From: Maritalea myrionectae DSM 19524 | Lineage (GTDB): Bacteria > Pseudomonadota > Alphaproteobacteria > Rhizobiales > Devosiaceae | Length of the DNA: 64,000 bases | Direction: 5' to 3' | Assembly (NCBI RefSeq): GCF_000423365.1 | Contig: NZ_AUHV01000003.1 | Span: 310,001 to 374,000 of the forward strand | Shown: piece after piece, positions 33,321 to 36,958 of the stretch | How positions within the stretch are numbered: position 1 is the first letter of the stretch | Layout of the letters: every line of letters starts with the position of its first letter | Position numbers and translations under genes: made by a program | The notes under the pieces: model-generated | What the model saw: only the letters and a program-made list of their open reading frames with translations | Databases searched by the model: none | What the model was told of the DNA's origin: nothing

Positions 33321-33346
33321 TGCCATCGGCATTGTGAGACAAATTG

Positions 33347-33379
33347 CCCCGGCTTTCACGAAAGCCGGGGTTTTCTTTT
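33347..33379 (+). terminator. terminator of greA
   Basis: Ten-base perfect stem CCCCGGCTTT/AAAGCCGGGG with loop CACG, then TTTTCTTTT. Confidence 0.92.
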
Positions 33380-33475
33380 CTCTTTTTGTGCACGCCGCAT
33401 CGCCGCTGCTTGCAACCGGGCGTGGCGATACCTAAACTATACACAACATCAATGCTTAAAAAGAAGGTTGCGCTT

Positions 33476-34429
33476 ATGCACGCTCCTGTCATGATTATTG
33501 GCTCCGGCCCCGCAGGCTATTCTGCCGCAATTTACGCCGCACGCGCCATGCTTGAACCTGTTGTCATTCAGGGCATCCAGCCCGGTGGCCAGCTCACCAT
33601 CACCACGGAAGTGGAAAACTATCCCGGTTTCGCTGAAATGATCCAAGGCCCTTGGCTGATGGAGCAAATGAAAGCACAAGCCGAAGCGATGGGCACCAAA
33701 AACATCACCGATACAATTATCAATGTGGATTTGGACAAACGCCCCTTCACCCTCACCGGCGATAGCGGCACCATCTACACTTGCGACAGCCTGATCATCG
33801 CCACTGGCGCACAAGCCAAATGGCTGGGCATCCCGTCAGAACAGGCTTTCCAAGGCTTTGGCGTCTCTGCTTGCGCCACTTGTGACGGCTTTTTCTATCG
33901 CGACAAGCATGTGATTGTGGTTGGCGGCGGCAACACGGCTGTTGAAGAAGCCCTGTTCCTCACCAATTTTGCCTCAAAGGTGACTGTCATTCACCGCCGT
34001 GACTCGTTCCGCGCCGAAAAGATTTTGCAGCAACGCCTGTTCAAAAACGAAAAGATCGAAGTGCTGTGGGACAGTGAGTTGGAAGAAGTTCTCGGCACTG
34101 AGGGCATTCCGCGCACAGTGACGGGCGCGAAAGTCAAAAACCGCAACACAGGCGAAGTCACCGAAATGGACGTGGACGGCGTGTTTATTGCCATTGGCCA
34201 CGCCCCAGCCACCAGCTTGTTTGAAGGCAAGTTGGAAATGAAGCATGGCGGCTATCTGGTCACCGCACCAGACAGCACCGCCACCAACATCCCCGGCGTT
34301 TACGCCGCAGGCGACGTGACCGACGATATTTACCGTCAGGCCGTCACCGCTGCTGGTATGGGCTGCATGGCTGCTTTGGAAGCTGAGAAATTCTTGGCCG
34401 AGCAAGAAGTCGCCGAGGCTGCTGAATAA
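33476..34429 (+). CDS. trxB: thioredoxin-disulfide reductase
   Basis: NADPH-dependent flavoenzyme that reduces thioredoxin in the cytoplasm. The 317 residues show the FAD site IIGSGPAGYSAAIYAAR at the start, the redox pair in SACATCDG (CxxC near residue 136), the NADPH site VVGGGNTAVEEAL and the closing GVYAAGDVTDDIYRQ. The ATG with GAAGG 8 bases upstream is used; a long upstream extension is ruled out. Its stop overlaps the start of the LysR gene by one base, so the two are co-translated. This pair is conserved in rhizobia (known from memory). Confidence 0.96.
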   Translation: MHAPVMIIGSGPAGYSAAIYAARAMLEPVVIQGIQPGGQLTITTEVENYPGFAEMIQGPWLMEQMKAQAEAMGTKNITDTIINVDLDKRPFTLTGDSGTIYTCDSLIIATGAQAKWLGIPSEQAFQGFGVSACATCDGFFYRDKHVIVVGGGNTAVEEALFLTNFASKVTVIHRRDSFRAEKILQQRLFKNEKIEVLWDSELEEVLGTEGIPRTVTGAKVKNRNTGEVTEMDVDGVFIAIGHAPATSLFEGKLEMKHGGYLVTAPDSTATNIPGVYAAGDVTDDIYRQAVTAAGMGCMAALEAEKFLAEQEVAEAAE

Positions 34430-35325
34430 TGGCCATTGATTGGGACCGCCTGCGGGTTTTTCATGTCGTCGCCGAAGCCGGCAGCTTCACCCATGCGGGG
34501 GAGCGTTTGGGCATGAGCCAGTCTGCGGTTTCCCGTCAAATCTCCTCGTTGGAGGATAGCCTTGGTCTCAAACTGTTCATCCGCCACGCCCGCGGGCTGG
34601 TGATGACAGAGGTGGGCGAGCAATTGTTCCGCACCGCCCACCGCATGGCTTGGGAATTGCAGTCCGTAGAAGCGCAAATGACCGAAAGCCAAGACATGCC
34701 GTCCGGGCCACTTTTGGTCACCACGACAGTTGGTTTTGGCTCCACATGGCTCACCTCGCGCATTGATGAGTTTTTGGATCGTTATCCAACCATCCAAATG
34801 GAAATCAAACTCAATGATTCTGAGCTCGACCTCGCTATGCGTGAGGCGGATGTCGCCATTCGGTTGCACCGCCCCAACCAATCAGAGCTGATTCAGCGCA
34901 AGCTGTTCACTGTGCATTTCCACCTCTATGCCTCAACCTCCTATTTGGAGAAATTTGGCATTCCGAAATGCGTCGAGGATTTAGACAATCACCGCATCAT
35001 CACTTTTGGGAATCCCAGTCCCGAATATTTGGGTGACGTGAATTATTTGGAGCGATTGGGCCGCCCAGAGAACAATCCGCGCCAGCCCATTCTGCGCGTC
35101 AACGCGATTTATGGCATGATGCAAGCCGCGCGCGAAGGCATTGGCATCGCCATGCTGCCCGACTATATCACCGAGGGCGAACCAAGCCTTGTGCAAGTGC
35201 TTGATGACGTGGAAACCCCTGAATTTGAAACATATTTTGTTTATCCACCAGCGCTAAAAGCTTCCAAGCGCGTCGGCGTTTTCCGTGACTTTTTGGTCTC
35301 AAAGGCCCGCGACTGGTCCTTCTAA
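34429..35325 (+). CDS. lsrB: LysR-type regulator of the LsrB/VtlR group
   Basis: 298-residue LysR regulator: winged-helix domain at residues 1-65 (DWDRLRVFHVVAEAGSFTHA) and a periplasmic-binding-like effector domain to the end. It resembles from memory the rhizobial LsrB and Brucella VtlR proteins, known to respond to redox or host signals and to activate small RNA genes; the co-translation with trxB is the same. Four small RNA genes with matching LysR boxes begin directly downstream, so they are its probable targets. No extra cysteine pattern for redox sensing could be confirmed by eye. Confidence 0.85.
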   Translation: MAIDWDRLRVFHVVAEAGSFTHAGERLGMSQSAVSRQISSLEDSLGLKLFIRHARGLVMTEVGEQLFRTAHRMAWELQSVEAQMTESQDMPSGPLLVTTTVGFGSTWLTSRIDEFLDRYPTIQMEIKLNDSELDLAMREADVAIRLHRPNQSELIQRKLFTVHFHLYASTSYLEKFGIPKCVEDLDNHRIITFGNPSPEYLGDVNYLERLGRPENNPRQPILRVNAIYGMMQAAREGIGIAMLPDYITEGEPSLVQVLDDVETPEFETYFVYPPALKASKRVGVFRDFLVSKARDWSF

Positions 35326-35344: not shown

Positions 35345-35410
35345 ATGCATATGGCGCATGGCTGATATGCGCAATTAACATTTGCCAAATGTTAATTCCA
35401 TCTTCATAAC
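35345..35410 (+). promoter_or_regulatory. LysR box and promoter of small RNA 1
   Basis: ATGC-N7-GCAT (T-N11-A form) begins at 35345, then another ATGC. TTGCCA (-35) follows 37 bases after the first base of the box and CATAAC (-10) after 17 more. The box centre falls near -66, the usual LysR activator position. Confidence 0.75.
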
Positions 35411-35416
35411 CCGCCT

Positions 35417-35531
35417 CAAGAAAAGCGAAACACAAAGTTGTTCCTCCTCCCTCAACTTTTTCGCTATTCCCTCCTTGTAAGAGGTTTCCTCTTGAATTCT
35501 TTAGCCCCATCTTCGGATGGGGCTTTTTTTT
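35417..35531 (+). ncRNA. cuckoo/alpha-r14-type small RNA 1 (CCUCCUCCC loop)
   Basis: About 115 nt, no coding frame. The first hairpin (AAAGTTG/CAACTTT) shows CCTCCTCCC in its 12-base loop; a second, smaller hairpin is AAGAGG/CCTCTT; the terminator is GCCCCATC-TTCG-GATGGGGC plus eight T. The CCUCCUCCC loop is the mark of the cuckoo RNA family (CcsR RNAs of Rhodobacter, alpha-r14 RNAs of rhizobia), which bind Shine-Dalgarno-like purine runs in target messages. The 5' end is placed 7 bases after the -10 and is approximate. This copy has one full motif only and is the most diverged. Confidence 0.85.
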
Positions 35532-35571
35532 GGCCAAAATCGACACCGATCAGCAAACCTAATTTGCAGCC

Positions 35572-35637
35572 ATGCATTTTGCGCATACCCCATATGCACC
35601 AAACCCCATTGGCAAACCCAACCCTATGGGCCATATA
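35572..35637 (+). promoter_or_regulatory. LysR box and promoter of small RNA 2
   Basis: ATGCA-N4-GCGCAT box, second ATGC, TTGGCA (-35) at 37 bases from the box start, 17-base spacer, CATATA (-10). Same geometry as the other three units. Confidence 0.75.
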
Positions 35638-35643
35638 AGGGAC

Positions 35644-35776
35644 ATAACGTGATGACAACGTCCTCCTCCTCCCAGTTGTCAGATCGTTTTCGGCAGACAC
35701 CGTCCCTCCTCCCTCGATGTCTGCCCAACCTATTTAAAAGGACCTCGCCACCTCCTCCCGGCGAGGTCTTTTTTTT
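35644..35776 (+). ncRNA. cuckoo/alpha-r14-type small RNA 2 (three CCUCCUCCC loops)
   Basis: About 133 nt with three hairpins, each with CCTCCTCCC in the loop: TGACAAC/GTTGTCA, GGCAGACA/TGTCTGCC, and the terminator stem GACCTCGCC/GGCGAGGTC followed by eight T. The third motif is inside the terminator loop itself, which makes every structural element a target-binding loop. The 5' end is inferred from the promoter. It lies just before the lysE-like gene, separated by its terminator. Confidence 0.9.
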
Positions 35777-35868
35777 GCCCCAACGCATAGCTCCATTTTC
35801 GAAGATCCGCTCTTGCCCGACGCACGCACTCAGCGCATATTATGCCGACTTAGCGAGATGGAGTTGTT

Positions 35869-36507
35869 ATGGCCTGGTCTGAAATTTTAACGTTCACCTT
35901 TGTGGCCGCGTTGCTTGTCGCCTCACCAGGACCAAATGGCGTCCTTATTGCCAAAACAGTCCCGACTTCAGGTAAAGCCGCAGGCTTTGCCAACGTTTTA
36001 GGCTTCATCACCGCATTTTACTTGCATGGTGCCTTGGCCGTTTTGGGCATCTCCATCATATTGGTTCAATCTGCGGCGGCCTTCACCTTCGTCAAATATC
36101 TGGGGGCAGCCTATTTGTGCTGGATTGGCATCAAAGCGCTCTACGCTGCTGCCAAGGGTGTCTCTGCACCGGCAAAAGTGACCCCGGCAAAGCGTAAAAG
36201 AACATTGCGCAATGCCTATTTTGAAGGGCTGTTCACCAATGCGCTCAACCCCAAAGTGTCTATGTTTTACCTTGCGGCGTTTCCGCAATTTATCACCGTC
36301 GGTGAAACAAGCGCGGCCAGTTCATTCTTGTTGATCTTTATTCATTCCACCATGAATGCAATTTGGTTTGGCGCGATGGTTTTATTGTTCGCGCGCTTAA
36401 GCCGTTTTGCGCGCCAGGGCAACTTCCAACGCTGGCTTAAAGGCCTCACGGGTGTTGTCTTTGTTGGTTTCGGCATCAAACTCGCCAGTTTTCGACCCAA
36501 TATCTGA
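35869..36507 (+). CDS. LysE/RhtB-family exporter
   Basis: 212-residue inner-membrane exporter of the LysE superfamily (amino acids or related small molecules). The family opening TFVAALLVASPGPNGVLIAK is present, with six hydrophobic segments and the NALNPKVSMFYLAAFPQF motif in the second half. It is embedded between two pairs of small RNA genes. A one-mismatch form of the LysR box used by those RNAs (ACGCA-N4-GCGCA) lies 45 bases before its ATG but too close for the same promoter layout. Confidence 0.88.
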   Translation: MAWSEILTFTFVAALLVASPGPNGVLIAKTVPTSGKAAGFANVLGFITAFYLHGALAVLGISIILVQSAAAFTFVKYLGAAYLCWIGIKALYAAAKGVSAPAKVTPAKRKRTLRNAYFEGLFTNALNPKVSMFYLAAFPQFITVGETSAASSFLLIFIHSTMNAIWFGAMVLLFARLSRFARQGNFQRWLKGLTGVVFVGFGIKLASFRPNI

Positions 36508-36543
36508 TCAAATTCAACGCCTTAGACGGTCATAACGCGACCC

Positions 36544-36609
36544 ATGCAAAAAGCGCACGGCTCCCATGCGCATTTGCCCCTTGTAAAATCAACGCCGATA
36601 CCTCATATC
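36544..36609 (+). promoter_or_regulatory. LysR box and promoter of small RNA 3
   Basis: ATGCA-N4-GCGCA box and second ATGC, TTGTAA (-35) at 37 bases from the box start, 17-base spacer, CATATC (-10). Confidence 0.75.
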
Positions 36610-36615
36610 CCCCTT

Positions 36616-36746
36616 CATAAGAGTTGAGCGCGTTTCTCCTCCCTAGCGCAACGCTCTTTTTGAAGATGGCAAGCAACGTCCCTCCTCCCTCGATGTTTGC
36701 CAAAAACTATTCAAGGCCTCGTCTTTATGACGGGGCCTTTTTTTTT
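36616..36746 (+). ncRNA. cuckoo/alpha-r14-type small RNA 3
   Basis: About 131 nt. The first hairpin is short and holds a one-base variant (TCTCCTCCC) between GCGC arms; the second (GGCAAGCA/TGTTTGCC, one G-T pair) shows a full CCTCCTCCC; the terminator is AAGGCCTCGTC/GACGGGGCCTT followed by a run of T. The 5' end is inferred. Its second hairpin is nearly the same as those in RNAs 2 and 4. Confidence 0.88.
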
Positions 36747-36763
36747 GCGCCTTGAGCTTACCT

Positions 36764-36829
36764 ATGCAAAAAGCGCATCCCCCATATGCAATTTGAACGC
36801 TTGTAAATCTGACCGTGCAGACGCATATA
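36764..36829 (+). promoter_or_regulatory. LysR box and promoter of small RNA 4
   Basis: ATGCAAAAAGCGCAT box and second ATGC, TTGTAA (-35) at 37 bases from the box start, 17-base spacer, CATATA (-10). It shares CATATAAGGGACATAA with the promoter of RNA 2. Confidence 0.75.
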
Positions 36830-36835
36830 AGGGAC

Positions 36836-36958
36836 ATAAGAGTTGAGAACGCATCCTCCTCCCAGCGAACTCAACTCTCAAAAGAACAGCAAACACGTCC
36901 CTCCTCCCTCGTTGTTTGCTGTACCAATTAAGGCTTCGCTTTGTGCGGGGCCTTTTTT
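36836..36958 (+). ncRNA. cuckoo/alpha-r14-type small RNA 4
   Basis: About 123 nt. The first hairpin is GAGTTGAG/CTCAACTC with CCTCCTCCC in a wide loop; the second, a ten-base stem ACAGCAAACA/TGTTTGCTGT, shows another CCTCCTCCC; the terminator is AAGGCTTCGC/GCGGGGCCTT plus T run. The 5' end is inferred. Compensatory differences from RNA 3 in the arms, with identical loops, support the fold. Confidence 0.9.

Follow-up and report, generated by a model that had tools for sequence, protein, structure and literature searches.

A conserved array of four anti-Shine–Dalgarno small RNA genes beside lsrB in Maritalea myrionectae, probably under LsrB control

The four small RNA units that follow the lsrB gene of Maritalea myrionectae DSM 19524 very probably form a conserved array under the control of LsrB, the LysR-type regulator encoded immediately upstream. 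They lie in a stretch of 64,000 nucleotides (positions 310,001 to 374,000 of contig NZ_AUHV01000003.1, C2:310001-374000 of the 3.54-Mb genome), called the window below; coordinates given without a contig refer to its forward strand, on which all the features described lie unless stated otherwise. Judged from sequence, it is likely that these units are a four-gene array of anti-Shine–Dalgarno small RNAs under LsrB. In the mechanism proposed, LsrB would bind the pattern ATGC-N7-GCAY-N7-ATGC 5´ of each unit and recruit RNA polymerase to a housekeeping-type promoter, as at NfeR1 in Sinorhizobium meliloti. Each RNA would display one to three CCUCCUCCC-type loops on stems of drifting sequence in which pairing is retained. 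Translation would be blocked by pairing of the loops with GGGAGGA(GG) at ribosome-binding sites, chiefly on mRNAs for catabolism and for ABC and TRAP transporters. The anatomy of the array, the uniqueness of its composite promoter, its conservation beside lsrB, its stems and the enrichment of transporters at matching Shine–Dalgarno sites are established by sequence; we infer that the units are transcribed, that LsrB binds their operators and that a signal induces them, as well as the direction of regulation.

The signal in the DNA is a composite of box and promoter, not the box alone. The initial annotation had placed an ATGC-N7-GCAY box exactly 37 bases before the −35 hexamer of each unit, with a 17-base spacer between −35 and −10, and this geometry holds in all four cases, with boxes starting at 35345, 35572, 36544 and 36764. 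Operator 1 (35345–35370) precedes promoter 1 (35382–35410; −35 TTGCCA, −10 CATAAC), operator 2 (35572–35597) precedes promoter 2 (35609–35637; TTGGCA, CATATA), operator 3 (36544–36569), a GCAC variant, precedes promoter 3 (36581–36609; TTGTAA, CATATC), and operator 4 (36764–36789) precedes promoter 4 (36801–36829; TTGTAA, CATATA). The transcription starts predicted earlier, at 35417, 35644, 36616 and 36836, are reproduced by a rule that sets them 7 bases 3´ of the −10 hexamer, and the centre of the first two half-sites then falls near −65 (−66 in the annotation). A third half-site, absent from that annotation, is present in all four operators, giving ATGC-N7-GCAY-N7-ATGC with half-sites spaced 11 bases. 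The TGCA-N6-GCAT form known from S. meliloti is found in units 1, 2 and 4, with GCAC in unit 3, while the GCAT-N3-TG-N3-T form of Brucella and Agrobacterium fits unit 1 only. Operator 4 retains its ATGC half-sites and has lost the TG core, with a family-matrix score of 7.3.

ATGCA-N6-GCAY by itself occurs at chance level in the window (five copies against 3.7 expected from shuffles), and the box alone was rejected as evidence on account of this frequency; the genome holds 95 copies, and a backward-pattern control gives four. The composite TGC-N7-GCAY-N22-TTG-N20-YATA occurs four times in the whole genome, always in the array, and its reversed-pattern control not at all. A scan for E. coli-type sigma-70 promoters recovered none of the four (0 found against 2.2 expected by chance).

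The annotation had also described four RNA units with CCUCCUCCC-type loops and a terminator each, and loop counts, folds and terminator hairpins bear this out. Unit 1 (35417–35532) has one CCUCCUCCC loop at 35443, an unpaired UUCCCUCCU, a small hairpin and a terminator from 35503. Its layout sets it apart as a type of its own, which can be recognised in both Maritalea and Devosia. Unit 2 (35642–35776) is an alpha-r14 RNA with three CCUCCUCCC hairpins, the third of which is the terminator. Unit 3 (36616–36748) carries CTCCTCCC at 36636 and CCTCCTCCC at 36681, with a terminator from 36713, and unit 4 (36835–36958) has two CCTCCTCCC loops, at 36855 and 36900, with a terminator from 36930. The 3´ ends of units 1, 3 and 4 are terminator-like hairpins with a T-run. 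Exact loops number one, three, one (plus the CTCCTCCC loop) and two, and the seven copies of CCTCCTCCC in the window are all inside units (0.26 expected; none of 100 shuffles reached seven). All four units fold better than every one of 200 shuffles, with z of −5.0, −7.7, −4.4 and −7.7 for units 1 to 4.

Membership in the cuckoo/alpha-r14 family, which had been implied for all four, stands in part. The units are of the cuckoo/alpha-r14 kind, but in the covariance model search only unit 2 exceeds the gathering cut-off of the Rfam ar14 model (RF02344, 58.8 bits), with 67.8 bits, while units 1, 3 and 4 stay below it with 20.3, 25.8 and 33.7. Likewise, only unit 2 has the three hairpins, each with a CCUCCUCCC loop, that define alpha-r14; a single loop hairpin is present in unit 1, and two, followed by a plain terminator, in units 3 and 4. 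The broader definition of cuckoo RNAs, a variable number of CCUCCUCCC-loop hairpins on drifting stems, fits the 308 loops counted in 133 units of the window and its relatives. Since an alignment of 23 unit-1 RNAs handled the first stem poorly, stems were assessed by swapping arms, with swaps restricted to left arms that diverge at no fewer than 8 of 14 positions. Matched arms reach −6 kcal/mol or lower in 244 of 251 distinct pairs, against 772 of 3000 swapped pairs; an earlier run without this divergence filter found at least six pairs in 305 of 308 matched and 1985 of 3050 swapped combinations. The loop stems drift in sequence yet keep their predicted pairing, as reported for the cuckoo-type RNAs SmelA075 and SmelA099 (PMC3927594).

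In the short-arm fold, seven of the eight window loops reach −6 kcal/mol, and none of the nine CCTCCTCCC copies elsewhere in the genome does so (best −4.9, with the unit-1 loop itself at −4.1). No DUF1127 (CIN1 association) was recognised on reading the open reading frames (ORFs) of at least 25 amino acids in the array by eye, and no profile search was made for it. A separate MmgR-like RNA is found at G000:C2:936853-936913 (L097, L171), with 39.9 bits on RF00519, just under the cut-off, and with no LsrB operator upstream by eye.

Conservation of the box in relatives, on which the initial annotation had staked its reading beforehand, holds in Devosiaceae and, as described further below, in 18 of 27 loci elsewhere in the order. 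The relatives consist of 61 lsrB loci (numbered L), mostly of Devosiaceae, among which L059 and L060 look like outsiders. Downstream of lsrB, the window and the 61 relatives have 173 loop clusters, of which 133 were anchored to −35 and −10 hexamers located without use of the box. GCA stands at the exact offset in 127 of the 133 anchored units, and the full TGC-N7-GCA in 69; many of those without it have the first half-site one or two bases closer. The offset of GCA-N8-ATG is 0 in 104 units, −9 in 23, −13 in two and −10 in one, with no other shift between −25 and +12, and in those −9 rows that were inspected the anchor had fallen on a second TTG nine bases further on. ATGC-N7-GCAY-N7-ATG occurs in every unit of the window, L003 and L004, 12 in total, and in five of the seven anchored units of L005 to L007. 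At least one box-bearing anchored unit is present in the window and 53 relatives, and three or four are present in 29 of these 54. The published VtlR box, GCAT-N3-TG-N3-T, is part of the family consensus, TGCATGGCTG.CATG, whose TG core operator 4 lacks. An operator scan allowing one mismatch gave matches in 26 of 31 Devosiaceae genomes.

L003 and L004, two other Maritalea loci, each have four units with matching loop numbers, and this one-to-one retention of distinct units would fit dose or target tuning. Rfam at gathering cut-off, run on 17 of the 61 relatives, gives only three ar14 matches and one RF00519 match, and so misses most arrays. Tandem arrays of predicted units adjoining lsrB run through Devosiaceae, and this is a new addition of the present analysis, as are the operator sites at lsrB elsewhere in the order, the loss of the redox cysteines and the transporter-rich set of genes with a matching Shine–Dalgarno. 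In a search of titles and abstracts, from whose scope the cuckoo RNA family paper, two AbcR/VtlR papers and the Agrobacterium LysR paper of Eisfeld et al. were excluded, no report of such arrays in Devosiaceae was found.

In 31 loci (for example L029, L033 and L039), the inverted repeat TGACC-N4-GGTCA is seen in the −35/−10 region or spacer of one unit per array. Within 219 kb downstream of lsrB, 31 of its 32 occurrences sit in the −35/−10 region of one array unit, and none is found in the four promoters of the window. This repeat is likely to be the operator of a second regulator acting on one array member.

The candidate targets point to transporters. GGGAGGA followed by ATG after 3 to 11 bases occurs 76 times in the genome, against five for the backward control. 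The first 30 sites in contig order, all on C1, were sampled, and the 24 ORFs of at least 100 amino acids were kept, the six shorter ones being dropped. According to Pfam, these comprise 15 ABC/TRAP transporter parts, including 11 periplasmic solute-binding proteins, together with eight enzymes and one protein of no family. As a control, the Shine–Dalgarno sequence AAGGAGA, which does not match the loops, was treated in the same way (93 sites, backward control four; the first 30, 24 of them on C1, gave 20 ORFs of at least 100 amino acids, with ten dropped). Binding proteins make up 11 of 24 against 0 of 20 (Fisher p = 0.0003), and ABC/TRAP parts 15 of 24 against 1 of 20 (p = 0.00009). This enrichment fits the targets reported for NfeR1 and AbcR, as a correlation only. 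Separately, nine CCTCCTCCC sites lie elsewhere in the genome, and at four of them (C1:54757, C1:93263, C1:471543 and C3:189168) the opposite strand reads GGGAGGAGG 3 to 9 bases before an ATG. These would be perfect nine-base loop targets. Genes for a GFO/IDH/MocA oxidoreductase and an ABC ATPase are among those concerned; at C1:93257 the ORF is doubtful, with only 60 amino acids.

The regulator gene (34429–35325) encodes a full-length orthologue of characterised LsrB/VtlR proteins. Its best match in PDB is 9hh1 (370 bits, 55% identity over 298 amino acids; the next PDB match has 122 bits), it is the single lsrB match at E ≤ 1e-70 in the genome, and its best segment is 98% identical to the counterparts of Maritalea mobilis and M. 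mediterranea. The cysteines of 9hh1 are at 144, 236, 244 and 273, the same numbers as in A. tumefaciens LsrB, in which C144–C273 has been called a conserved pair (PMC11975290). In Maritalea these positions hold V, A, M and V; the cysteine-pair switch proposed for Agrobacterium LsrB cannot be the signal here, because those cysteines are absent. Among 61 sequences (the window and 60 of the 61 relatives, L061 being omitted as a fragment), all lack C144, C244 and C273, 35 retain C236, and 23 are entirely free of cysteine. Among the 27 loci examined outside the family, only L132 has the C144–C273 pair. As the pair is absent in the Devosiaceae set and present only in L132 outside it, the redox input seems to have been added in the Rhizobiaceae line.

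Much of the mechanism is known from S. meliloti, where activation of an alpha-r14 RNA by LsrB has been published. LsrB is reported to bind TGCA-N6-GCAT at −72/−57 of the NfeR1 promoter and to be required for its transcription; NfeR1 is an alpha-r14 RNA repressed by NtrC, whose loops act on ntrB (PMC10746234). Like NfeR1 (RF02344), the Maritalea units have CCUCCUCCC loops (in three hairpins in unit 2), an LsrB-type box near −65, a housekeeping-type promoter with a 17-base spacer and predicted transporter targets. Unlike it, there are four tandem units of unequal loop number, adjoining lsrB and with a box each. A review of both RNA families describes six NfeR1-type copies in S. meliloti, of which one alone was reliably detected (PMC7143759). 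LsrB is also reported to drive AbcR1, encoded next to lsrB, while AbcR2 depends on RpoH1 (PMC8844928), and the box GCAT-N3-TG-N3-T and activation of small RNAs have been described for VtlR in Agrobacterium (PMC7486931). The array shares with AbcR1 and AbcR2 (alpha-r15, RF02345) the place beside lsrB/vtlR, the LsrB operator (of AbcR1), anti-Shine–Dalgarno loops and transporter mRNAs as targets. However, the Maritalea genome has no RF02345 match at E up to 1, and none of the 60 loci of the Devosiaceae set that were checked has an AbcR-like second module downstream of lsrB. The regulator resembles the LsrB/VtlR proteins of Agrobacterium, Sinorhizobium and Brucella in its adjoining small RNA genes and in the VtlR-type box of unit 1, and differs from that of A. 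tumefaciens in its lost cysteines. The cuckoo RNAs CcsR1-4 of Rhodobacter sphaeroides are likewise four tandem RNAs with CCUCCUCCC motifs, but they are reported to be processed from a single RpoHI/HII-driven transcript with ccaF1 (PMC10253847), by RNase E, whereas each Maritalea unit has its own predicted promoter, box and terminator. The four-gene array adjoining the gene of its activator appears to be a new arrangement.

Several observations weigh against this interpretation. Forty of the 173 loop clusters could not be anchored; some are plainly no units, while others show a box by eye with divergent hexamers. Eight of the 61 relatives have no anchored box-bearing unit: L041 and L045 cover fewer than 150 bases downstream, L059 and L060 are the apparent outsiders, no CCTCCTCC is present in the stretch covered for L027 and L040, and L051 and L053 have loops that the anchoring rule failed to anchor. 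Beyond the family, nine of 27 loci have no site in the flank covered. In the window, operator 4 scores low with the family matrix and ranks only tenth, and the short-arm fold gives no better than −4.1 kcal/mol for the unit-1 loop at 35443. Of the 76 GGGAGGA sites, the target comparison drew on 24, sampled in contig order, and a preference of transporter genes for this motif could have causes other than the loops.

One alternative is that the four units are one alpha-r14 family multiplied by tandem duplication, redundant and serving dose only. The promoter geometry and loops common to all units, and the resemblance of units 3 and 4 in 5´ sequence and layout, would agree with this. It is unlikely, given that loop number and layout differ among the units, that unit 1 represents a type of its own seen in two genera, that unit 2 alone passes the ar14 cut-off and that L003 and L004 preserve four units with the same loop numbers. 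A further possibility is that the units are real anti-Shine–Dalgarno RNAs but that some other regulator recognises the box, or that units 3 and 4 answer to another than units 1 and 2. LysR half-sites resemble one another, operator 4 without its TG core contrasts with scores of 23.1, 18.8 and 17.6 for the other three, and the additional inverted repeat in one spacer of 31 relatives makes further regulators likely there. Against it, the box accompanies lsrB across the order (18 of 27 loci), it agrees with the LsrB and VtlR sites in the literature, and three half-sites with exact spacing are common to all four operators, so that we consider this quite unlikely. The proposal in the annotation that a single LysR regulator serves all four is retained with a reservation: LsrB, from the adjacent gene, probably activates all of them, but at unit 4 it would do so through an operator without the core.

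It is improbable that unit 1 is an MmgR RNA (RF00519) instead of a cuckoo RNA. It scores 37.4 bits with this model, below the cut-off of 41, and the locus L003 gives 41.9, above it; but the better match in the Maritalea genome is the one at C2:936853, itself below cut-off and by eye without such an operator, and 13 of 14 control genomes also yield a match to the model at E up to 1. That C-rich repeats and half-sites have come together by chance, with no function, is suggested by the chance frequency of the box alone; set against the uniqueness of the composite, its conservation and the pairing of the stems, this can be dismissed as extremely improbable.

Under the preferred reading, an array driven by LsrB, the same association can be followed beyond Devosiaceae. 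A sample of 61 genomes (that of the window and 60 drawn from the order) contained 56 with an lsrB match at E ≤ 1e-70, and the 30 best of these 56 matches, with flanks of up to 1.5 kb, were compared; 27 are outside the family. Using an operator matrix trained on 82 Devosiaceae units, Maritalea excluded, and calling sites above the 99th percentile of shuffles, an operator was found downstream of lsrB in 18 of the 27 loci and upstream in none. Two block shuffles reached 22.8 and 14.2, and a single matrix score this high is therefore no proof. In 17 of the 18 site-bearing loci a CTCCC-type loop lies 52 to 73 bases past the TTG; in L108 the first loop is at 9. The classical case is L132: here LsrB shares 93% identity with 9hh1, and lsrB is adjoined by two AbcR RNAs (127 and 119 bits), a third lying elsewhere in the genome. 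CAG-N-TGTTCC-N-CTCT, which resembles the second module of the L132 RNAs, occurs in six other loci (L108, L109, L112, L116, L117 and L128), and L117 and L128 combine this AbcR-like module with CCTCCTCCC in the first hairpin. It was the operator, together with a short module picked out by eye in L132 and similar loci, that marked these loci as AbcR-like, and not Rfam; the label is weakened by the lack of any match to the Rfam AbcR model in the genomes of five of the six; the genome of L109 has a sub-threshold match (29.9 bits) adjoining lsrB. Rfam applied to 17 order loci at E ≤ 0.001 gave one match, to SorX and below its own cut-off, and none to RF02345.

Two loci of further families, L120 and L130, each have three tandem box-driven units adjoining lsrB, with CTCCTCCC or CCCTCCC loops.

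Judged by these loci, one regulator with its operator and place accompanies AbcR RNAs in one lineage and cuckoo arrays in a second, with mixed forms in others. We infer, tentatively, a shared origin, which is possible but whose probability is lowered by the Rfam misses: AbcR and cuckoo (alpha-r14) RNAs may be branches of one ancient family whose origin lies downstream of lsrB in the Hyphomicrobiales ancestor. The ancestral module would have consisted of the regulator, a three-half-site operator and an anti-Shine–Dalgarno hairpin. It might have multiplied in tandem in Devosiaceae and some other families, been remodelled in the Rhizobiaceae line to AbcR1/2 with a cysteine redox switch, and been the source from which alpha-r14 copies spread.

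The order of genes around the array is trxB, lsrB, unit 1, unit 2, an exporter gene, unit 3, unit 4 and, on the opposite strand, msrP. The trxB ORF (33344–34429), directly 5´ of lsrB, encodes a thioredoxin-disulfide reductase (TIGR01292, 416.6 bits, cut-off 343); its true start is probably 3´ of the listed TTG, because the TIGR01292 match starts only at residue 49. The LysE/RhtB-type exporter gene (35869–36507; TIGR00949, 133.5 bits, below the cut-off of 184) is not part of the array and separates units 2 and 3 in the window. In L004 these units are directly adjacent: the first loop of unit 3 is about 140 bases past the last loop of unit 2, a distance so short that no exporter gene can lie between them.

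If the shared origin holds, AbcR and cuckoo/alpha-r14 RNAs, which have been named separately, would join as one regulator-linked module in many families of Hyphomicrobiales. It would also suggest that the RNA output of LsrB is older than its redox input. Finally, it would offer a free-living system for asking why cells keep several similar transporter-silencing RNAs under one switch.

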